IMG/VR virus record: IMGVR_UViG_3300031974_000185
Span: 1-33,304 of that record
DNA length: 33,304 nt
Direction: 5' to 3' (one strand)
DNA from: a virus
Positions 10,162-33,304 of the stretch are shown piece by piece (positions within the stretch are counted from its first letter, which is position 1; every line of letters begins with the position of its first letter). The translations under genes and the position numbers were made by a program. The notes under the pieces are model-generated. The model saw only the letters and a list, made by a program, of their open reading frames with translations, had not been told where the DNA came from and did not search any database.

Positions 10162-11131
10162 TACAAGAGAATACTACAAACCATTTGATGACCCATGGAT
10201 GTTTGATTATTATGTCCTACAAAATCAAATGCATTGGATGCCAGAGTCTGTACCGTTACATACAGATGTAAAGGACTGGCAAGAACTAACAGACAAAGAA
10301 AAGAATTTACTTACACAAATATTTAGATTGTTTACTCAATCAGATGTTGATGTAGGTTCCGGATATGTAGATAGATATATGCGTATCTTTAAAAAGCCAG
10401 AAGCAAGAATGATGATGGGTTCGTTTGCAAACATGGAATCAATTCATCAACATGCTTATAGTTTATTACTTGATACAGTTGGTATGCCTGAGATAGAGTA
10501 CAAAGCTTTTGCTGAGTACGAAGAAATGTCAGACAAGCATGAGTATATAAGTGATATTAAAACAACATTAAAAGATAAGAAAAGTATTGCAAAAACTTTA
10601 GCAGTTTATTCAGCTTTTACTGAGGGACTACAACTCTTTAGTAGCTTTGCAATCTTGTTAAACTTCCCACGCTTCGGTAAAATGAAAGGCATGGGACAAA
10701 TAGTTACTTATTCTATACGTGATGAATCTTTACACGTAGAAGCTATGACAAAATTATTTAGAGAGTTTATAAAAGAGAACATAGAAATCTGGACAGACGA
10801 TTTCAAAAAAGAACTCTATGATATTTGCAGACAAATGGTTGAGCTTGAAGATAAGTTCTTAGATTTAGTATTTGAAATGGGAGACATTCAAGGCTTAACT
10901 AAAAAAGATATGTATGCTTATAATAGATATATAGCAGATAGAAGACTACTACAATTAGGATTAAAAACTAATTACGACCAAAGAGAAAATCCACTTGGTT
11001 GGATTGATGAGGTCACAGGTGTTGAACACCAAAACTTTTTTGAAGGCAGAGCAACTACCTATATGAAAGCCGGACTTAGAGGTAGACAAGATAATGTTGT
11101 ATTTAAAACTATAGGAGATTCCAATGATTAA
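10148..11131 (+). CDS. nrdB: Class I ribonucleotide reductase, small subunit
   Basis: A 327-residue radical-generating subunit. I start it at ATG 10148 (MSLLSTREYYKPF), preceded by AAGGAAAA; the longer frame upstream belongs to the zinc-ribbon gene in another frame. The dimetal ligands are present with E. coli spacing: D66, E97-x2-H100, E159 and E193-x2-H196. Y104 sits four residues after H100, matching the radical tyrosine Y122. This points to a normal tyrosyl-radical enzyme working with the upstream NrdA to make dNTPs. It overlaps the next gene by eight bases. Confidence 0.95.
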   Translation: MSLLSTREYYKPFDDPWMFDYYVLQNQMHWMPESVPLHTDVKDWQELTDKEKNLLTQIFRLFTQSDVDVGSGYVDRYMRIFKKPEARMMMGSFANMESIHQHAYSLLLDTVGMPEIEYKAFAEYEEMSDKHEYISDIKTTLKDKKSIAKTLAVYSAFTEGLQLFSSFAILLNFPRFGKMKGMGQIVTYSIRDESLHVEAMTKLFREFIKENIEIWTDDFKKELYDICRQMVELEDKFLDLVFEMGDIQGLTKKDMYAYNRYIADRRLLQLGLKTNYDQRENPLGWIDEVTGVEHQNFFEGRATTYMKAGLRGRQDNVVFKTIGDSND

Positions 11132-11342
11132 TAAAAGTGAAGCAAACTTAGTCAGCTTCAAAATACTTTTAACAAGAGATAATAAAATTGTAACAGAGTT
11201 TAGTATGTTACCAGAAGAAATGGTTGATGAAGTCTTCCCTCCAGAAGATAGACCATTGATGAAAACAATTATCAGAAACGGTAAAGCTAAACTAGAAAAC
11301 TTACACGGTTACTTTCAAAGAGAACTTAACGCTTTGGAATAG
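11124..11342 (+). CDS. Hypothetical 72-residue protein at the end of the plus-strand arm
   Basis: A short protein (MINKSEANLVSFKILL...) that overlaps the end of nrdB by eight bases. It looks soluble, with a beta-type start and helical end (LENLHGYFQRELNALE). No family is recognised. Its 3' end overlaps the 3' end of the minus-strand cyclase gene by 17 bases, so the two transcription arms converge here without a spacer. Confidence 0.65.
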   Translation: MINKSEANLVSFKILLTRDNKIVTEFSMLPEEMVDEVFPPEDRPLMKTIIRNGKAKLENLHGYFQRELNALE

Positions 11343-13065
11343 TATAAATCTTTATGGGTTTCTCTTTACCCTTTACATAAATTGGCTTAAGAGTTGCATA
11401 GTTACCTGTGTAACTCTTAATTGTTTCATGACCTATGACTATATCTTCGCCAACTTCTTTTGTAGAACTCTCTAACCTAGCAGCTAAGTTAACTGCATCC
11501 CCTATTGCTGAGTAATCAAATCGTGAATCACTTCCCATATTACCTACAACTGCTTCTCCTGTATTTACCCCTATACCTATCTCTATTCCTAAATCGGCTT
11601 CAGCCATACGTTGGTGTATTTTCACAGCTGATTCAACAGCTCTTTGCTCATGTTCATCTAAGTCTATAGGTGCATTAAAGATAGCCATCATAGCATCACC
11701 AATATATTTATCTACCATCCCTCCACATTCTTTAACTGCATCAGCTTGAATAGTCAATGCTTTATTCATTATCTCTGTTACTTGTTCAGGCTCTAACTTT
11801 TCTGACAAGCTTGTAAATCCTCTAACATCTGTAAATAAAAACGTACATCTTCGTCTATCTCCGCCTAACTTCAGAAGTTCAGGATTATCTTGTAGCTGTT
11901 TGACTTGTCTTGGGTCAAGGTAATGTTCGAACTGTTGTTTGATTTGTTGTCTAAGTTTGTATTGCTTTCTAAAGTTTAGATAAAAACTTTGAGTAGCAAT
12001 AAGTGTCATACTTATCATACTCCATGTGAAATCTATAAGAGTATGACGGTTTATAAAGTCATACTGTAAATATGCCATCAGAGCTATCAAACTTAGAAAT
12101 GATACTAGACCCTTAGTGATGTTAAGATAATTGATTACAAGAGCTGTCAGTAAGCCTGAGACTAATAATATACATAGCTCAACAAACAATCTATAGTCTG
12201 GTATTTTTGGAGTCTCTAATAAAATACTTTCTGCTAATGCTCCTTGTATTTTATGTGGCTCTAATAATCCTACTGGTGTAGCAACTTGATTGCTTATACC
12301 TTTAGCTGTAAAGCCAACAAACACAAAAGTATTTTGTACATCTAATTCTTTTAGGGTTGTTTGTTTAGTATCAACCCAACTTACCCACTTCCTACCGAGA
12401 CTATCTGTAGCAATGGGAGGTAGCCCACGAACTCTTATCTGTTCAATTCCATTTTCATTAGTTTTTATTTGATAAGTACGACCACCTCCTAGTATTTTTA
12501 AGACTTGAGTTCCAAATGAAGCTACCCACCCATCTGGAGTTTGTTGTAATAAGGGAATTTGTCTGACAAGATTATCAACGTCAACAGGTACAGAGATAGT
12601 ACCTTGAGTAGCTGACTGTTTGAGTATGTCAATATTTTCTAAGAAACCTTGTGCTTGTGGAATGACAACATCTGGACCAACTATTACAGTCCCATGTGTC
12701 TGAGGATAATTATTATTATCTACCTCTGGCATAGCTATAACACTTGCAGAGCTTTGTAAAGCTTGAGCAAATACTTCGTCTCCACCTAACCTATCTTCAT
12801 GTGGAAACAACATAACCCAACCTACACCGTAAGCTCCTGCATCTATAATCTGATTATGAATATCTGCCAAGGTTTGACGTGGCAGTGGATAACCACCAAA
12901 GCTATCTATATCTTCTTCAGTGATATTTAAAATTGTGAAATGCCCTGTAGGACTTTGCTCCGGAATCAGAGCATCAAAAGTTTTGAGTCTTAATACTTCA
13001 AGTGGTGTCCAGTTAAACAACAAAGGAATTGTTAGGAGTGTTAAAAGAATACTAGACCACTTCAT
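11326..13065 (-). CDS. CHASE2-domain membrane adenylate cyclase
   Basis: A 579-residue class III nucleotide cyclase. An N-terminal membrane segment (about 4-18) leads to a periplasmic CHASE2 sensor domain (about 25-285) with the typical LRLKTFDALIP start and FVGFTAKG near its end. Three membrane helices (about 292-362) and a cytoplasmic cyclase domain (about 405-579) follow. Metal-binding D413 (FTDVRGFT) and D457 (KYIGDAMMA), substrate K453, S519 at the adenine-selecting position (DYSAIGD) and transition-state N526 and R530 (VNLAARLE) are all present. It should make cAMP from ATP in response to a periplasmic signal. Such enzymes are bacterial; its presence at the end of a phage late operon is unusual. 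Its start shares bases with the FecR stop (TAATG), so the two are coupled. Confidence 0.9.
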   Translation of the reverse strand: MKWSSILLTLLTIPLLFNWTPLEVLRLKTFDALIPEQSPTGHFTILNITEEDIDSFGGYPLPRQTLADIHNQIIDAGAYGVGWVMLFPHEDRLGGDEVFAQALQSSASVIAMPEVDNNNYPQTHGTVIVGPDVVIPQAQGFLENIDILKQSATQGTISVPVDVDNLVRQIPLLQQTPDGWVASFGTQVLKILGGGRTYQIKTNENGIEQIRVRGLPPIATDSLGRKWVSWVDTKQTTLKELDVQNTFVFVGFTAKGISNQVATPVGLLEPHKIQGALAESILLETPKIPDYRLFVELCILLVSGLLTALVINYLNITKGLVSFLSLIALMAYLQYDFINRHTLIDFTWSMISMTLIATQSFYLNFRKQYKLRQQIKQQFEHYLDPRQVKQLQDNPELLKLGGDRRRCTFLFTDVRGFTSLSEKLEPEQVTEIMNKALTIQADAVKECGGMVDKYIGDAMMAIFNAPIDLDEHEQRAVESAVKIHQRMAEADLGIEIGIGVNTGEAVVGNMGSDSRFDYSAIGDAVNLAARLESSTKEVGEDIVIGHETIKSYTGNYATLKPIYVKGKEKPIKIYTIPKR

Positions 13066-14171
13066 TAGTTACTCTGTTTAATTTTAATTGATGATGAGTT
13101 ACCACCGTTAACTATTATCTGGGTACTCTTACCATCTTGCACTAACAATACTGTATAAGCTCCAGAACTATCTAAATTTAAACGTACAGTATCCTCTACC
13201 TGTCTAAAGATAGTTAATATATTATCAGTCATAAAAGTATTTACTTGAGTATCTTGGTCATACCCAAACTTTGTACCTTTTAAATTTATTTCTGAGACAT
13301 TACCAAGCTGGTCAGTCTCTAACTCATCTATTTGTTCTATTATATCTAGTAAATCTTCTAAGAAGTTTACATCAAGATAGTTGATATCTAACTCTGTAAA
13401 TTCTAAATCATCTTCTGCTAAGTAATCTATATCTAAATCAGAGAACTCAAGGTAATCAACATCAAGGATATTAGAAACGTTACTTCCATCTTGTCTCTCA
13501 TCTTCTATTGTTTCTGGTGGTTCGTTAACTATTAACATGTTATCTATGACATCTAAAGTTAAGTCAAGGATAACAGGCTCTGTTGGTTTTGTTTCAAACA
13601 TAGAAACTGTAGTAGCTTGATAAGACTTGTTCAGTACTACTTGTCCTATAGCAGTACTTACAAGTATCTCACCACTTGGAATACCATTTTCATCGGGCAA
13701 TAAAATAATTAAAGACCTACCAAGTTCATCTACAGTTACTGTGAAATCAGTTCCACGAATAGCTATAGTAGCACTTGGGGTCTTGATAGATATATTCTGC
13801 TTGTCAATAGATGCAAGTTTGCCAGTGATAAATCGTGCAGTACCACTAGCAAACTGCAAAGCCATCTTAGATTTAGATGGGTCAGGGTCGTAGATAAACT
13901 CATCAATAACTAACTCTGAATGTTCAGTTAGTCTTACTTGACTGTCATCTAAAAAAGTAATGCCCACTCTTCCGTTAGAAGTTTGGACATTATCATAACT
14001 TTCTATACCAAATTTTAAAGCAGCTGGAATCTCTTCGTTTCTAACTACTCTTGCAACACCGTTAAGTTCTGTAATACTACCTATATCAGCAACCGATTGC
14101 TGTCCCGCCATCGTTTTGAATGACACAAATAGTACCATTGTTGCCACTACTAATAATCTTAAGCCAATCAC
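13065..14171 (-). CDS. Secreted FecR-domain protein with acidic repeats
   Basis: A protein of up to 368 residues. A signal peptide (about 1-22, ending TMA before GQQS) suggests export. The FecR domain spans roughly 30-190, with VQTSNGRVGITFLDDSQVRL and the hallmark TPSATIAIRGTDFTV (131-145). Residues 235-285 carry a leucine/aspartate repeat (LDVDYL, LDIDYL, LDINYL). A beta-rich end follows. In bacteria FecR domains act in periplasmic signalling, and from memory they are often found beside CHASE2 cyclases, as here. The start is uncertain: GTG 14171 gives the best signal peptide but overlaps the curlin-like gene by 86 bases; ATG 14138 and ATG 14111 are alternatives. No clear ribosome binding site is seen. 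Confidence 0.85.
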   Translation of the reverse strand: MIGLRLLVVATMVLFVSFKTMAGQQSVADIGSITELNGVARVVRNEEIPAALKFGIESYDNVQTSNGRVGITFLDDSQVRLTEHSELVIDEFIYDPDPSKSKMALQFASGTARFITGKLASIDKQNISIKTPSATIAIRGTDFTVTVDELGRSLIILLPDENGIPSGEILVSTAIGQVVLNKSYQATTVSMFETKPTEPVILDLTLDVIDNMLIVNEPPETIEDERQDGSNVSNILDVDYLEFSDLDIDYLAEDDLEFTELDINYLDVNFLEDLLDIIEQIDELETDQLGNVSEINLKGTKFGYDQDTQVNTFMTDNILTIFRQVEDTVRLNLDSSGAYTVLLVQDGKSTQIIVNGGNSSSIKIKQSN

Positions 14172-14790
14172 TTGCTAATGTACTCTGTTGTTGAATGTTA
14201 AATGTTCTGCTATTTCCTGTCTGGTCAAGATAGAAATAACCTTCAGCATATCCGTCTCCATCATAAGTAATTGTATTGCTATCTCCATCTACATCTACAA
14301 AATTTGTAAACGAATCAATATCAATTTCAAACTCAAAGACGTTGCTATCACCATTGATAACCCAATCCAAATCCAAAGCACTTGCTAAGTCGTTAGTAGC
14401 TATGTCAAGTGTAAAGTCATTTGATGAACCTGTTACATCAACATTTATATCACTACCGTCTGCTCCATAAGTATTAGTAGGGTCAATTTGTACAGTGAAC
14501 TCGTTACTATCTCCATCAAAATTAAATGTACCTGTAAGCGTATCCGCCCAAATATCAGCTAGAAACTTGTTATAGTCTCCTATTTGATTTAATATTAAAG
14601 TTAAGTTATCACCATCTAAATCAAGAGCTGTCATACTACCAGCAACTGCATCTAAGCCACCCATAATATTACTAGAACCTAACTGTTCTAAGTCTATGTT
14701 AGCTGTATCTCCAGACTGGTCTATGAAAATTTCATTATCTGCTACTACTAATATAGATAGTAAAGCAGTTAAACTAATTAGCTTCTTCAT
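14086..14790 (-). CDS. Secreted curlin-like repeat protein, putative CsgG substrate
   Basis: A 234-residue acidic protein with a clear signal peptide (MKKLISLTALLSILVVA, then DNE). The mature part has about eight strand-turn-strand units built on h-x-G-(D/S)-x-N-x-h. Examples are IDQSGDTANI, LNQIGDYNKF, FDGDSNEFTV, VTGSSNDFTL, INGDSNVFEF, VDGDSNTITY and LDQTGNSRTF, spaced irregularly by 17-27 residues. Gln/Gly/Asn in the first, second and seventh units match the Q-x-G-x-N core of curlin repeats; the middle units have Asp in place of Gln. Two cysteines sit near the end (222, 234). It is probably exported as an amyloid-like or beta-solenoid protein. The placement directly after csgG supports this. 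It overlaps csgG by 17 bases. Confidence 0.7.
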   Translation of the reverse strand: MKKLISLTALLSILVVADNEIFIDQSGDTANIDLEQLGSSNIMGGLDAVAGSMTALDLDGDNLTLILNQIGDYNKFLADIWADTLTGTFNFDGDSNEFTVQIDPTNTYGADGSDINVDVTGSSNDFTLDIATNDLASALDLDWVINGDSNVFEFEIDIDSFTNFVDVDGDSNTITYDGDGYAEGYFYLDQTGNSRTFNIQQQSTLASDWLKIISSGNNGTICVIQNDGGTAIGC

Positions 14791-15580
14791 ATTCCCAATA
14801 CCCTCTTTGTATTCCTTCTTCTATTATATTTAAAACACCAGTCTCTATTGCTCTTTGCAAAGCTATAGACACTGGCTCGTTTTCTGTAGTTCCTCCTTCA
14901 AATTCTACTAGCTCTGTTCCAGCTTCATAGAATCTAAATACATCTTGTGATACACCTACAGATAATACAGTTTTAGAAACTAATACTTCCATAAGTATTT
15001 CACCTGTTGCTACAGATACTAAACGTAAAGAAATGGTAATCATATCTTCACGATATTCTTTAGTGCTACCTACACCTAAGTATCTAGCACCTATTCCGCC
15101 TGATGTAATGTTAGTATTATAACTAACCACTCCACCCTGCATTAACAACCCTGCAAATAACAGGGGCTGTAATTCTTTATTTTCTTTAAACTCTTGTCGA
15201 GTACTTCTAATTAGTTGTCGTTCTTTAGTTAGGTCATCTAAGCCTACTCTTTCTACTACTCTAAAAAACTTTCCATTTGCTGCGTGTTTAAAAGCTCTAA
15301 TCAATAAAGCTTCTGGAGCTTGGGTAATAGCTGTACTAAACAATGCAAATGAACTATTACTTTTTCTTTGTCCAGTTAAGTCTTTAAAACTATTCGGGTA
15401 CACTGCTATTGTCGGCTGTACTTTAGCAGCTGGTAAATTCTTTAATACTTCTGATTGTAAATCTAATACTGAAGATTCTTTGATACTTGTAGAGTCTGAC
15501 AGTACAAAGTCATCATTCAGTATTGCACAACTAGAAAGTAAAAGAACCAATAGGTAACTGAATAATTGTTTCATTGCCAT
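14774..15580 (-). CDS. csgG: Curli secretion pore lipoprotein CsgG
   Basis: A 268-residue outer-membrane lipoprotein. The N-terminus is a lipoprotein signal with lipobox LSSC. The body aligns by eye with E. coli CsgG throughout: FSTAITQAPEALL, ERVGLDDLTKERQLIRS, GGIGARYLGVGS, TISLRLVSVATGEIL, SKTVLSVG and NEPVSIALQRAIETGV. CsgG forms a nonameric outer-membrane channel that exports curlin subunits. The constriction Phe appears kept (FSTA), whereas the Tyr and Asn before it do not seem conserved. I chose ATG 15580; GTG 15583 and ATG 15574 are alternatives. The start lies 50 bases inside csgF, so the two are translated together. No csgE, csgB or csgD is seen. Confidence 0.93.
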   Translation of the reverse strand: MAMKQLFSYLLVLLLSSCAILNDDFVLSDSTSIKESSVLDLQSEVLKNLPAAKVQPTIAVYPNSFKDLTGQRKSNSSFALFSTAITQAPEALLIRAFKHAANGKFFRVVERVGLDDLTKERQLIRSTRQEFKENKELQPLLFAGLLMQGGVVSYNTNITSGGIGARYLGVGSTKEYREDMITISLRLVSVATGEILMEVLVSKTVLSVGVSQDVFRFYEAGTELVEFEGGTTENEPVSIALQRAIETGVLNIIEEGIQRGYWEYEEAN

Positions 15581-16040
15581 CACTGTCTGTAATTTTTAAA
15601 GTTATAATTCCGTCTTCAACATTATATTCTATGGTGTTACCTTCTAAACTTAGTACACCACTTTCGCTTGGAGTTTCACCAAATAAATTTTCTACTAGCT
15701 GTCTAGATAACTGTGCATATATTCTAGACTCTAGGTTTCTTATAAATCTTGCAAGTGTCGTGTTCTCTTTATCTCTTTCTATCTGTTCTTGTAATGCTTT
15801 TATTTCTTCTTTGATGCTCATCTTTCTTGAGAACTCTTGATTCTGTATAGTAAGATAATGTGCTGATGTACCTATACCACTAAAGCTAGGATTCTTAAAT
15901 GTATGTACCATTTCATCTGCAAAGACTTTAGAGTTACCCCAGAAAGCTAACAACATAAATCCAAATACAGCTACTTGAATTATAGAAGCAACTGTAACTT
16001 GTTTCATAGGATGTACTTTTTCTAAATCGTCTATCTTCAT
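15531..16040 (-). CDS. csgF: Curli assembly factor CsgF
   Basis: A 169-residue exported protein. After a hydrophobic segment (about 13-34) and a likely cleavage site (VFA before DEM at 41/42), the mature N-terminus MVHTFKNPSFSG matches the CsgF start that plugs into the CsgG channel (TFQFRNPNFGG in E. coli). The C-terminus, DGIITLKITDSDGNETIIQL, matches the final CsgF strands. CsgF couples secretion to surface nucleation in curli systems. The start at ATG 16040 overlaps the previous stop (TAATG) and leaves an unusual 11-residue charged lead (MKIDDLEKVHP); starting at ATG 16007 instead gives a standard signal peptide. The gene overlaps csgG by 50 bases. Confidence 0.88.
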   Translation of the reverse strand: MKIDDLEKVHPMKQVTVASIIQVAVFGFMLLAFWGNSKVFADEMVHTFKNPSFSGIGTSAHYLTIQNQEFSRKMSIKEEIKALQEQIERDKENTTLARFIRNLESRIYAQLSRQLVENLFGETPSESGVLSLEGNTIEYNVEDGIITLKITDSDGNETIIQLPIGSFTF

Positions 16041-16327
16041 TAATCTTTTCTTTGGTCTTTTTTACCGTCTGCTCTAGCTAATCTATCTACATCTATCTGT
16101 ACACCTAAAGCTGTGCGTACCATAGAGTCTATTCTTATCATGTCATTATCCATTTGTCTTACTCTATCTATTAAAGCAACTATCATACCGTGTTGAGTAT
16201 CTAGTTTTTTATGTACGTCAGCTATTAAAGCATTAAATAATTTATATACCATCCAACCGGCAGCAACTGCAAAAGCTGCAGGAATACCTACAGTTTCTAA
16301 CACGGTCATAAAATCTCTAGTGTCCAT
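16040..16327 (-). CDS. Small holin-like membrane protein with coiled coil
   Basis: A 95-residue protein with one membrane helix (about 13-33, GIPAAFAVAAGWMVYKLFN). A helical, heptad-patterned tail follows (DTQHGMIVALIDRVRQMDNDMIRIDSMV) with a charged end (ADGKKDQRKD). This plan is shared by phage holin-like and spanin-like proteins. The gene starts at the previous stop and ends at the csgF start, so it links the structural genes with the curli cassette. A lysis role is inferred from topology and position; no enzyme motif is present. Confidence 0.65.
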   Translation of the reverse strand: MDTRDFMTVLETVGIPAAFAVAAGWMVYKLFNALIADVHKKLDTQHGMIVALIDRVRQMDNDMIRIDSMVRTALGVQIDVDRLARADGKKDQRKD

Positions 16328-16770
16328 TACTTTCCTTTTACTAAACTACCACCGAAATACATACCGATAATAGCTGATACTAAGTTAGTATCTAGTTGTG
16401 TAATTACTAAGCCTTCAAAAGTTACCCAGTCAAATACTTCTTTACCTTCTGTGAAGAACCAAAATCCCGGATTCCAAATAGTATAACCTACTGTTACGTT
16501 TACATCAGGATAATAAACTGCTACAAGTTTTGGTAGTAATACAATTGCAAAGATAGATGTAAGTGCTATGATTCTTCTTGTCCATGCAAAGCCTTTATCT
16601 TTTAGCCCGTGGTCAAGTGATTGCTTTCTAGCTTTCATATCAAACTCACCACGAGTTATTAGTAGCTTTTGTTGTTCTGCTTTAGCTTTTCTACTTTCTG
16701 CCCAGACACTCATAAGTCCTCCGAGCAATGTAGAGCCTAGCATAGTTATTATTTCAAACGGAAATCCCAT
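16327..16770 (-). CDS. Putative holin-like membrane protein with three hydrophobic segments
   Basis: A 147-residue protein with hydrophobic stretches near residues 6-23, 66-87 and 126-144, and a basic linker rich in Lys and Arg (SRKAKAEQQKLLITRGEFDMKARKQ) after the first. The size, the glycine-rich membrane segments and the place right after the virion genes resemble a family of marine phage proteins often called holins or small tail-associated membrane proteins. It could permeabilise the inner membrane at lysis. GGACTAAG precedes the ATG. The two-base gap to the virion gene and overlap with the next gene show one operon. Confidence 0.6.
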   Translation of the reverse strand: MGFPFEIITMLGSTLLGGLMSVWAESRKAKAEQQKLLITRGEFDMKARKQSLDHGLKDKGFAWTRRIIALTSIFAIVLLPKLVAVYYPDVNVTVGYTIWNPGFWFFTEGKEVFDWVTFEGLVITQLDTNLVSAIIGMYFGGSLVKGK

Positions 16771-29315: not shown

Positions 29316-29690
29316 TTATCCACCAATAGTTTTAGTTACTGATGTAGGTGTAATAGCTTCAGTAATTTTTGCAGCTATTGCATCTTTAAGATTTTGTACT
29401 TCATCAGTACCCATAGCAGTTGTTACCCAACCTTCTACGTCACTAGCTGTAACACTATCAAAAGCTGTAAAGCTTCCTAAGTCTGAGATATCTAATGATT
29501 GTGTACCGTATACATCTGCTGTATAGTTTACATCATCACCATTCTCATCTTCGTAAGTATTAGTGTCATCAGTTCCTGTAAGTCTCCAATGTACATTGTA
29601 GATTACATCAGTTTCTGTTATTGCGTTTTCATCAGTTACAGACGGTTTAGTGTCCACTGTCGCAACGTTCCAAGTATAATTAATTGCCAT
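29316..29690 (-). CDS. Conserved tail-associated protein, 124 residues
   Basis: A beta-rich acidic protein that begins MAINYTWNVATVDTKPS and contains YNVHWRLTGTDD, YGTQSLDISDLGSFTAFD and VTASDVEGWVTTAMG. I recognise this arrangement from short proteins encoded next to tail fibres in marine tailed phages, where the function is not established. GGAG precedes the ATG. It overlaps the end of the tail fibre gene by 11 bases. It may be a fibre accessory or chaperone-like protein, by position only. Confidence 0.7.
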   Translation of the reverse strand: MAINYTWNVATVDTKPSVTDENAITETDVIYNVHWRLTGTDDTNTYEDENGDDVNYTADVYGTQSLDISDLGSFTAFDSVTASDVEGWVTTAMGTDEVQNLKDAIAAKITEAITPTSVTKTIGG

Positions 29691-32600
29691 TTTTTTCTCC
29701 TTTTAAGTTTGCAATTTCACTTTTTAGTGATTCTATTTGTTCCTGTTGTTCTTTCATAGCTTCGACCAACACGGATGTTATTCTATTATATTTCAATGCT
29801 AAGACTTCTTCACCATCTTCGTAAGCTGTGTATACTGCTTCTGGTAATGCCTTTTCAACATCTTGTGCTATAAAACCAGCTTCTTTAACATCTGGTTTCT
29901 TTTTATAATTATATGTAACACCATTTAAAAGTTTTACTTTTTCTATAGCATTAGGTATATTTTCAATATTTTCTTTTAATCTTCTATCAGATGTAGCTCC
30001 TGTTTCAATAACTACAGAACCTATCATTAAGTCTGTACTATCCATCCATAGTTTATAACTAGGTGCAGTATTACTATCCTGTGTTGTATTAGTATTAAAT
30101 CTAATACCATTTGTAAACACATCACCATTAATAGATGCTTTAGTGGTTATATTACTATTTGTAGTTTGACCATTTGTAGTTCCTACATAGAACTCACCAC
30201 CACTAGTTATTCTTACTCTTTCAGCATTATTATAACCATTAAATATTAATGAGTTATCTGTAGCATTTTGATATATAGAACCTTGCACACCATCTGATTG
30301 GTCGCCAAATTCTAATCCAGCATTACCTGTATCACTAGATGTTATTCTTATAAATGATTCGCCATTGTTATTAACATGAAGAGTTCTAGCTGGTGCATTT
30401 GTACCTATTCCAACCTGAGAATTGGTATTAATAGATAATGTATTAGTACTAGCACCTTGTGCAATTTTAAAAGGAACTGTAGCATTTACAATATCGTAAT
30501 AAGTAAAAGCTGAACTTGAAGCATCTATACCTATGTTAGCTATAGCTGTATTATTAGGTGCAAATACCATTCTTGCATTATTTGATGCAGTAGTAGATGC
30601 TAATTTAAGCTGTACGTTCCCAGCAGAACGTATATCAAGGGGATTATCGGGTGAACTTGTGCCAATTCCAAAGTTTCCACTAGAAATTATCCTTGCATAC
30701 TCAGTTGTGGCTGTGCCGTTATATCCAGTAAATAAAATATCACCGTTATTTGTGTTATTTCTTGAACTAATTGTAGTAACACCAGCAGATTGTTTAATTT
30801 CAGATACTTGGCTAGTGCCATCTGTATCTTGTAAAAATAATGATGCTATAGAATCTCTTATTCTTATATCACCATCAACAGTCAATTTATTACTTGGTGA
30901 ACTTGTGCCAATTCCAACATTACGAGAAGAATCTATAGTCATAGCAGTTGCCGAAGCAACTCTAAAGCCCATGTCATCAGCAGAATGGTCATAGAATATA
31001 CCAGCTCGTAAAGCAATATCACTATCAGCAAAAGCATAATAACCTGTGCCAGTATTTGTTGTTCCTACAGTAACACCTGTATTACCAGCATTATCAACAA
31101 ACAATTCATTTGCTGCTACATTAGGCGTTGAACCTGATGCACCATCATTACCTTGTATGTGCAGTCTAGCAGTTGAATGAGGTACTGAAGTTCCTATACC
31201 AGTAGAATTTGTACCTATAGATGATATTGCTGCACCATCTTTATAAATCTGTATTACTTGTCCGTGTGATGTATTTCTTTCAAACCTAACTGGTGCTGTG
31301 CCATCTGCAAAAACATTTAATTTTTTTTGTGGCGAAGTAGTCCCAATTCCAAGCGACTCAGCACTAGAATCCCAGAATAGAGCTTGTGAAGTTCCTGTAT
31401 CTTCGTAGAAAGAGATGTCTCCGTTAGATGCTATTTCTAAACGCTTTCTAGCATTTGCTTCAGCAGTAACTCTAGTGAAGAAATCTAAACCACCATTAAA
31501 GTTTCCTGATGTGGCACTTGTTTTAGAGCCTTTAATAACACCAAAAACTCTTTGTGTTCCACTACCATCATCGCCTTTAAAACTAATTGAAGCACCTGAG
31601 CCTACCGCTTGTGTTTCAGTTGATTCAAGTTGTAGGGTTGCACCAGTATTACTTACACCTGAACCGCCTTTGATTATAGCATCGCCTTCAACATGTAAAG
31701 TTGCTGATGGATTAGTTATACCAATTCCAACATTACCACTAGAATCTATTCTTGCTCTTTCAGCTTCAGAACCACTAGATGCAGTTTTAAAAACTATTTC
31801 AGTATTTTCTGTACCACCCGCATCACCCGCAGTAATTGCTAGTGTTCCTGTTGCATTTGCTAAACCAAAACCAGCATAAGTAGTTCCTGTAGATGCATCT
31901 ATTCTAATTCCATCTAGTCCATTAGAATCTGAGTTTGCTAATTGTTTTAGTGTTAGTATGCCATCTAGTGATGTAGTGTTTACACCTAGCTTTCCACTAG
32001 AATCTATCCTTACTCTTTCAGATGCATTTGTATGGAATCGCATTGAATCAGTATTATGGTTATATACAATTTGACCTATATCATCATCTGCTGAATCACC
32101 AAAAATTAAATAACCCTGTCCTGTACCTGATGAAGTATATATTCTTAGTTGTGGGTTTGTAGATGTTGACCTAATAATACCAGCTACATCTAAAGGATTA
32201 CTTGGCGCTATGCCTATTCCAACCTTACCATCTTCATTTATTGTCATTCTTGGTGAAGGTGCAGCACTATTTCTTAAATCATTTGAATTAGCTGTAAAAA
32301 ATTGTAACGATGCTTCATTAGCATTTGCACCAGCAAAATTTTCAGCAGCAAAAGTTTTTATTCCAGCTAAAACTTTTCTATCTGCATTTAAAGTAGCATC
32401 ATTCGAAGTAAATAATATTTCACCTATTAATTCACCCTCTGTGACTTGTGTATCTAAACTGTTTATTCTTAAACTCTCAACACCATCTGTGGTTGAAATT
32501 TCAAGTTTAGCGTTTGGTGAAGTAGTCCCAATAGCCAATCTTTCAGTTGATGCATCCCAAAGTAAACCTTCCGTTGTGCCTGTGTCATCGTAAAAAATTA

Positions 32601-33304
32601 TGTCATTGTTAGCTTTTATTAATAAAGCTTCAGTTAAACTTCCAGCTACAGAACTTGAATGAACAAGAAAAGCTAAACCTTGTACGTTGTTTGAGGTAGC
32701 TGTTTGTTTACCAACAATAGCAGAACGGATTTGAGAAGAAGTACCAGCTTTTGCAAAACCTAATCCACCTTTGTAGTTTCCGTTTCCAGTAGTAGCAGCA
32801 CTATTACCAATTATTAAACTAGCATTTGGAGTATTTGCTGTAGTGCTAAAAGCAGTTGTTGCTGTGGCGTTTGATAAACCTTCTACAGTTAAGCCGTCCA
32901 TTGTGGCTGTTCCTGTTACGTCTATGCCTGTATTGTTAACAGCAACTCTTTGACTATCTTGGTAATAAAGACGAGTCTCTCCACTTTGAATACCTAATAA
33001 AAATCTAGCACCTGTAGAATCTTCTAAGGAAAGATTTTGAGCCTGTATTTTTAAATTTCCTATACCAGCATCTTTTATATAACTATCACTAGCATCATGG
33101 TAGATTTGTAAATCATTACCATCACCAAACTGAGCTTTTTCGTTGTCTTCAAAGCTTATACCATTTCCACCAGCTGAACTAATTTGACTATCTACATAAG
33201 CTTTTACAGATTGTTGAGTCGGTAAAAGCGTTGCAGAGTTTGAAGACATATTATCTTCATCTACAAAACCTGTTATAGTAGTTGTACCGTCTGACAAGCT
33301 TCCG
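29680..33304 (-). CDS. Tail fibre with S74 self-cleaving chaperone domain (5' end outside window)
   Basis: At least 1205 residues are visible. The frame is open to the right edge, and the first in-window start is only a TTG at 33297, so the true start lies outside. The body is a series of degenerate beta repeats with GIGTSSP and RIDSSGNVGIG phrases recurring, typical of long trimeric fibres. The last 103 residues are a Peptidase_S74 domain (SDRRLKENIENI, GFIAQDVEKALPEAV), which folds the trimer and then cuts itself off before the Ser of SDRRLK. It ends in a coiled coil (MKEQQEQIESLKSEIANL). The fibre recognises the host surface. It overlaps the next gene by 11 bases. Confidence 0.9.
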   Translation of the reverse strand, partial: GSLSDGTTTITGFVDEDNMSSNSATLLPTQQSVKAYVDSQISSAGGNGISFEDNEKAQFGDGNDLQIYHDASDSYIKDAGIGNLKIQAQNLSLEDSTGARFLLGIQSGETRLYYQDSQRVAVNNTGIDVTGTATMDGLTVEGLSNATATTAFSTTANTPNASLIIGNSAATTGNGNYKGGLGFAKAGTSSQIRSAIVGKQTATSNNVQGLAFLVHSSSVAGSLTEALLIKANNDIIFYDDTGTTEGLLWDASTERLAIGTTSPNAKLEISTTDGVESLRINSLDTQVTEGELIGEILFTSNDATLNADRKVLAGIKTFAAENFAGANANEASLQFFTANSNDLRNSAAPSPRMTINEDGKVGIGIAPSNPLDVAGIIRSTSTNPQLRIYTSSGTGQGYLIFGDSADDDIGQIVYNHNTDSMRFHTNASERVRIDSSGKLGVNTTSLDGILTLKQLANSDSNGLDGIRIDASTGTTYAGFGLANATGTLAITAGDAGGTENTEIVFKTASSGSEAERARIDSSGNVGIGITNPSATLHVEGDAIIKGGSGVSNTGATLQLESTETQAVGSGASISFKGDDGSGTQRVFGVIKGSKTSATSGNFNGGLDFFTRVTAEANARKRLEIASNGDISFYEDTGTSQALFWDSSAESLGIGTTSPQKKLNVFADGTAPVRFERNTSHGQVIQIYKDGAAISSIGTNSTGIGTSVPHSTARLHIQGNDGASGSTPNVAANELFVDNAGNTGVTVGTTNTGTGYYAFADSDIALRAGIFYDHSADDMGFRVASATAMTIDSSRNVGIGTSSPSNKLTVDGDIRIRDSIASLFLQDTDGTSQVSEIKQSAGVTTISSRNNTNNGDILFTGYNGTATTEYARIISSGNFGIGTSSPDNPLDIRSAGNVQLKLASTTASNNARMVFAPNNTAIANIGIDASSSAFTYYDIVNATVPFKIAQGASTNTLSINTNSQVGIGTNAPARTLHVNNNGESFIRITSSDTGNAGLEFGDQSDGVQGSIYQNATDNSLIFNGYNNAERVRITSGGEFYVGTTNGQTTNSNITTKASINGDVFTNGIRFNTNTTQDSNTAPSYKLWMDSTDLMIGSVVIETGATSDRRLKENIENIPNAIEKVKLLNGVTYNYKKKPDVKEAGFIAQDVEKALPEAVYTAYEDGEEVLALKYNRITSVLVEAMKEQQEQIESLKSEIANLKGEKNGN

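Follow-up and report, generated by a model that had tools for sequence, protein, structure and literature searches.

A conserved curli-type secretion cassette with a FecR-CHASE2 gene pair in a virus most likely infecting SAR11

Published curli modules and the locus described here

Curli secretion genes are known from several groups of marine phages. The genes csgF and csgG were first reported in pelagimyophages (PMC7029224), and a full set with FecR and a cyclase was described in 2022 for podo- and myophages (PMC9599517). In the latter paper, the order of the viral type VIII secretion (T8SS) module is a small gene ('HK'), CsgF, CsgG, CsgA/B, FecR, in some cases a further CsgA/B, and adenylate cyclase; one or two short histidine kinases invariably stand before the module, which lacks CsgE, CsgC and CsgD, and its curli proteins and FecR were present at all 65 ocean stations surveyed. 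Between them, three reports place this order in pelagimyophages, HTVC023P-type podophages and the OM43 phage Melnitz (PMC9599517, PMC9004378, PMC7029224). For Melnitz, its authors report csgF and csgG, propose a role in lysis, and state that clumping of infected cells was not seen (PMC9004378); the Melnitz GenBank record also annotates curlins, FecR and the cyclase. A transcriptome of the HTVC023P-type phage HTVC027P contains no mention of curli (PMC12753301).

We analyzed a 33,304-base IMG/VR virus record (hereafter the window, meaning its full length), which is classed as linear and is therefore possibly a fragment. An initial annotation had described a string of csgF, csgG, a curlin-like gene, FecR and a CHASE2 cyclase as a possibly new combination; the published module and the Melnitz annotation rule out that novelty. 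The locus has the CsgF-CsgG-CsgA/B-FecR order of the viral T8SS module, with a small gene before it and the cyclase that often follows. It departs from the module, as far as the available text of PMC9599517 describes it, in having one curlin only, in having relatives whose cyclase is absent or inverted, and in that the protein at the 'HK' position is holin-like and lacks a conserved His. By its DNA polymerase the virus belongs to the same broad group as the HTVC023P-type and myovirus pelagiphages treated in that text. The closest polymerase is that of Pelagibacter phage HTVC115P (53% identity), followed by HTVC103P and HTVC104P, and we infer from this proximity that SAR11 is the most likely host.

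Among individual genomes, Melnitz (OM43; MZ577097) and HTVC008M (KC465899) carry csgF, csgG, curlin, FecR and, further on, the cyclase in one direction, as here. They differ in having two curlins, the second between FecR and the cyclase, in having two copies of the first gene (h2), and in a CHASE2 part only ∼30% identical. Bacterial curli (csg) operons likewise have csgF and csgG adjoining curlin-repeat genes; at the curli loci retrieved from seven bacterial genomes (L183-L185, L187-L190), csgG was present, mostly with csgF and curlins, whereas FecR, the cyclase and h2 were absent. The other half of the cassette resembles bacterial FecR-CHASE2 gene pairs such as that of the Burkholderia BiofilmReg operon (PMC5192318), in which the gene for a periplasmic FecR-domain protein adjoins a CHASE2 membrane sensor gene, but in that operon FecR carries a LysM fusion, CHASE2 is coupled to a histidine kinase as its output, and curli genes are lacking. 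Because bacterial curli loci occur without FecR or cyclase and FecR-CHASE2 pairs occur without curli genes, the cassette looks like two joined bacterial modules.

Layout and genomic setting of the cassette

The open reading frames of the five-gene string were all confirmed on the minus strand, and their coordinates (Table 1) agree with the description of an uninterrupted, overlapping series. The five named genes span 16040-11326, and the range 11326-16327 originally given for them also covers h2. In minus-strand order, a gene for a 2309-aa protein and h1 are followed by the gapless six-gene string h2-csgF-csgG-curlin-FecR-cyclase. The proposal that all products are bound for the envelope is supported by hydrophobic N-termini on CsgF, CsgG, the curlin-like protein and FecR, and by the transmembrane segments of the cyclase. 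The curlin gene runs at its 3′ end for 86 bases (14086-14171) into the signal-peptide-coding 5′ end of the FecR gene, in a different frame, and the median overlap among podophage loci has the same length.

Table 1. Features of the cassette and its immediate neighbors in the window.
Feature	Position	Strand	Description	Profile match
h1	16327..16770	-	Small membrane protein, holin-like by the description of the initial annotation	phrog_38283 E=8e-8
h2	16040..16327	-	95 aa, one-helix membrane protein with coiled coil, holin-like	phrog_18771
CsgF	15531..16040	-	Predicted CsgG-pore cap, periplasmic/extracellular, phage-type C-terminus	PF10614 E=2.4e-18
CsgG	14774..15583	-	Predicted outer-membrane lipoprotein secretion pore	PF03783 E=2e-49
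Curlin-like	14086..14790	-	Secreted all-beta protein, probable cargo	PF07012 E=0.12 (this sequence alone)
FecR-domain protein	13065..14171	-	Periplasmic	PF04773 E=1.2e-11, residues 61-147; phrog_37870 E=3.9e-80
CHASE2 class III (adenylate-type) cyclase	11326..13065	-		PF05226 2e-27; PF00211 6.9e-19
dn	11124..11342	+	Convergent 72-aa gene, last of the ribonucleotide-reductase module	phrog_27180

The gene dn marks the edge of the slot in which the cassette lies and overlaps the 3′ end of the cyclase gene by 17 bases, tail to tail. A dn ortholog stands at the same place in HTVC115P (E=4e-10), which has no cassette, and is followed there by unrelated small genes and Hsp20; thus the cassette sits in a variable slot. 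Elsewhere in the window, the early region holds a pyrimidine-dimer DNA glycosylase-like gene (105-617; PF03013, E=6.1e-7), and positions 29680-33297 encode a 1205-aa protein that resembles tail fibres and has a peptidase S74 chaperone domain at its C-terminus.

Secretion genes, the first gene and their co-occurrence

The CsgG family has an invariant lipobox cysteine (Cys19), and its profile matches solved CsgG (3x2r) over nearly the full length at 9.5e-65. The CsgF profile matches solved CsgF (6l7a) at 7e-11, and the protein keeps the N-terminal, pore-binding FxNPxFxG...S.H.L segment common to bacterial CsgF. Two components of a type VIII system, a CsgG pore lipoprotein and a CsgF with the CsgG-binding N-terminal segment, are thus recognizable; the third, a secreted curlin-repeat substrate, is recognizable at the level of the family and only weakly in this protein alone. 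A 1499-base unannotated record titled Salmonella phage S.Kent 1-2-1 (OR851715.1) encodes a CsgG 40.6% identical to that of this virus and is probably a host csg fragment.

The curlin-like identity proposed earlier, weak for the single sequence, holds for its family. PF07012 was found in 6 of 13 relatives (best 8.6e-6), the Q, G and N positions of the curlin-type Q.G..N motif are invariant, and the protein contains 7 GxxN motifs where 2.19 are expected, a number reached in 7 of 5000 shuffles. Its N-terminus is signal-peptide-like, and its AlphaFold model is all-beta (pLDDT 78.8). A fold search with this model returned no significant match to any solved structure, and a sequence search none to a solved curlin; the motifs are irregularly spaced (22-33). 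Because of this spacing, the single copy and the lack of a significant structural match to curlin, the podophage protein may not form fibres. We consider it the probable cargo of the pore.

On balance, the reading that we judge somewhat probable is that the locus is a late type VIII (curli) secretion module adapted to phage use, of the kind known from pelagiphages, and that FecR-CHASE2 serves it as a periplasmic sensor. By homology, CsgG would form an outer-membrane pore that CsgF lines or caps, and the curlin-like protein would leave through it onto the surface of the infected cell. The module would be a movable unit adjoining structural genes and, to judge only from strand and position, expressed late. 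Candidate benefits to the phage include control of lysis and fibres on the cell surface, which might aggregate cells or prevent superinfection. Two published observations count against this explanation: the usual gate or adaptor CsgE is outside the published phage modules (PMC9599517), and Melnitz caused no clumping (PMC9004378).

The earlier proposal called for a gene-neighborhood survey. Using profiles derived from the genes of this virus, we annotated 80 viral loci anchored on csgG and 80 anchored on h2, and counted distinct loci after removing near-identical ones, scoring only those with room for the gene in question. Both csgF and h2 lay upstream of csgG in 70 of 70 such loci, curlin and FecR both lay downstream in 60 of 60, and in the h2-anchored set csgF and csgG followed in 65 of 65, counts drawn from overlapping metagenome projects and hence from loci that are not fully independent. 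The genes mostly overlapped end to start. Across seven close pairs, dN/dS was ∼0.00-0.25 for all six cassette genes, so that all are under purifying selection. This co-occurrence is far beyond chance, and the locus is a conserved cassette, not a chance neighborhood. The expectation that all five genes would co-occur was upheld without exception for csgF, csgG, curlin and FecR and less strictly for the cyclase; genes scattered over unrelated places with nothing shared beyond csgG/csgF, the pattern that would have spoken against a common system, were not seen in the survey, which rules out that reading.

The same four genes lie together in HTVC008M and Melnitz, and at one locus (L089) the cassette stands beside terminase and portal genes. 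Together with the ribonucleotide-reductase slot in our window, these cases show that the unit is kept in unrelated genomic settings. Two loci from metagenome-assembled genomes (MAGs) titled Maricaulis and Pelagibacter (L085 and L089) were rejected as bacterial full cassettes since the virion, terminase or portal genes on them show that they are phage contigs. Three further loci (L086, L087, L186) have the same gene order and may be either phage or bacterial copies. Phage contigs of this kind inside bacterial MAGs can make the cassette look chromosomal.

Two holin-like genes had been said to precede the string, and one of them is a constant part of it. The other, h1, which has a single strong hydrophobic segment (residues 61-88), was detected at some cassette loci but not at others, and we found no similarity to HTVC115P gp35, with which we had considered equating it. 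By the counts above, h2 is an obligate sixth member of the cassette. Among isolates, it was found only in HTVC008M and Melnitz, where both copies stand at the place published as 'histidine kinase', and from this position it is probably the gene so labeled in PMC9599517. Members of the family are 85-116 aa long and combine a single hydrophobic helix with a coiled coil. All 17 relatives matched phrog_18771, and 7 of the 17 matched the holin family phrog_4898 (best E=1.1e-4); we found no conserved His in the family and no kinase match in Pfam. We therefore rejected a histidine kinase as the first gene, given its 95 aa and its matches to holin families instead, and read h2 as a holin-like membrane protein. 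The label in the literature deserves reconsideration.

An obligate holin-like gene is also what one would expect if the cassette served lysis control, with the CsgG pore and h2 dissipating gradients of the membrane or envelope late in infection, curlin or CsgF acting as a plug, FecR-CHASE2 timing lysis, and fibres being beside the point. The adjoining late genes fit such a role, as do the missing CsgE, the lysis function proposed for CsgGF and the unclumped Melnitz-infected cells (PMC9599517, PMC9004378). However, every cassette has a conserved curlin that bears an export signal, which goes beyond the needs of a pore, the cassette has no endolysin, and lysis does not require it, because the isolate HTVC115P infects SAR11 without one. 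We regard lysis control as rather unlikely to be the main function.

The FecR-CHASE2 pair and its catalytic output

In the secretion module that we favor, FecR would be periplasmic and the CHASE2 cyclase an inner-membrane protein, the two forming a periplasmic sensor of export or envelope state that puts out a cyclic nucleotide. In FecR, the hydrophobic segment (1-24) begins at residue 1; by Pfam the protein has only the FecR domain, and no anti-sigma part was found before the membrane helix. An iron or anti-sigma regulator of the FecI/FecR type, which would need a cytoplasmic N-terminus, was therefore rejected. The same feature bears on the suggestion, made in PMC7029224, that CsgG/CsgF is an uptake pore, which here would admit larger nutrients to the periplasm of the starved infected cell while FecR-CHASE2 senses nutrient state. 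The hosts are oligotrophs, as that idea would have it, but it leaves the constant curlin and h2 unexplained, and the iron-regulator reading has no direct support since FecR lacks the anti-sigma part of iron signaling; we consider an uptake pore very improbable.

The AlphaFold model of FecR was poor overall (pLDDT 39), with only the last 70 residues moderately confident and all-beta, and a fold search with it gave nothing significant. Motifs resembling extra curlin repeats in the FecR C-terminus, seen by eye, were discarded when a profile comparison did no better than shuffled columns; Pfam Curlin_rpt matched no member of the family.

The sensor pair proposed earlier is supported from two sides. 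In a sample of 75 bacterial genomes from one class, probably Gammaproteobacteria (the central genome is titled Polaromonas), 19 of 47 FecR places had a CHASE2 gene within 4 kb on the same strand, and phage profiles matched no curli gene in ∼1.5 kb of flank at the 30 CHASE2 loci retrieved. Thus, FecR-CHASE2 is a common bacterial gene pair that occurs without curli. There is also a precedent for such a sensor in Sinorhizobium, where CHASE2 cyclases act downstream of the outer-membrane barrel protein NsrA (PMC13001267). In phages, FecR and CHASE2 protein distances across 57 podophage loci were correlated at 0.87 (partial correlation 0.79 given CsgG), and FecR and catalytic-half distances at 0.41 (partial −0.04 given CHASE2). 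The latter value is low because the catalytic domain has been exchanged repeatedly.

This exchange is visible among the cassette cyclases, which have two types of catalytic domain (L016, L017, L100, L104, L108 and others). Two cyclases (L016 and L017) share 96% in CHASE2 and 44% in the catalytic domain, and the catalytic type switches 6-8 times on the CHASE2 and FecR trees. The active site was kept throughout: the metal-binding D413 and D457, the adenine-specifying K453 and the transition-state R530 are invariant in 61 of 61 sequences, and N526 is present in 59 of 61, so that both types have the residues of class III adenylate cyclases.

The position of the cyclase is also variable. Of 88 distinct FecR-bearing loci, 55 had it downstream in the same direction, 9 had it on the other strand and 10 had none, with 14 unresolved; its absence or reversal in a minority of loci makes it a separable partner. 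Where inverted (L100, L104, L105, L107-L110, L115, L122, L141 and L143), it lies in the ribonucleotide-reductase string directly after the small gene that follows nrdB, and the podophages concerned form one clade on the FecR tree. If strand reflects timing, these phages would make the cyclase before the pore. Part of the FecR-CHASE2 correlation could stem from physical linkage. In the inverted loci, however, FecR and CHASE2 are separated by the swapped catalytic half, and at each of these loci the closest FecR and the closest CHASE2 are both those of other inverted loci, whereas the closest catalytic half often belongs to a non-inverted locus. Since FecR-CHASE2 kinship is thus kept across an intervening catalytic half, linkage alone is an imperfect account; within this group (n=7) the FecR-CHASE2 correlation was weak (0.24), over a narrow range. 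We conclude that phages pass on FecR and the CHASE2 half as one pair, and this co-inheritance, beside an exchanged catalytic half with a conserved active site, is the reason for proposing a periplasmic sensor.

The claim that this sensor answers with cAMP fared less well, standing as far as the intact active site goes and losing ground on the separable cyclase and on the receiver. The cyclic-nucleotide-binding domain PF00027 occurs in 4 of 79 SAR11-family genomes, of which one is a MAG with a phage contig in it and two match in unusually long frames, and a search of 17 phage records with the cassette did not find it. Three of the 79 genomes have class III cyclases, one of these being the cassette cyclase itself. 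With PF00027 nearly absent, an answer through a CRP-type regulator has no known receiver, and a CRP-type receptor in SAR11 appears unlikely. This removes the easiest account of the cyclase output.

One way to do without a CRP-like receptor is for the product to act extracellularly or as a decoy, leaving through the pore or interfering with host nucleotide signaling. The conservation of catalytic residues through repeated domain exchange and the scarcity of PF00027 in hosts and phages agree with this. However, the receptor survey covered the PF00027 class alone, and the Lys453 signature fits a plain adenylate cyclase; we hold such an output to be improbable.

In the available text of PMC9599517, PMC9004378 and PMC7029224 we found no account of FecR-CHASE2 co-inheritance with catalytic exchange, of the inversion, of the missing receptor or of a holin-like h2. 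Within the secretion module that we favor, the sensor pair with an exchangeable output is the most useful new lead, because an exchanged cyclase part beside a constant pair gives a testable hypothesis on what the module senses. Tentatively, the co-inherited FecR-CHASE2 sensor may report the state of the phage-built curli pore from the periplasm, and the exchangeable cyclase output, swapped some five or more times, may act on a receptor in infected SAR11 cells outside the cNMP-binding family, a possibility that we do not yet think probable. If true, the phage would import an envelope-to-nucleotide signaling circuit that has no counterpart in its host.
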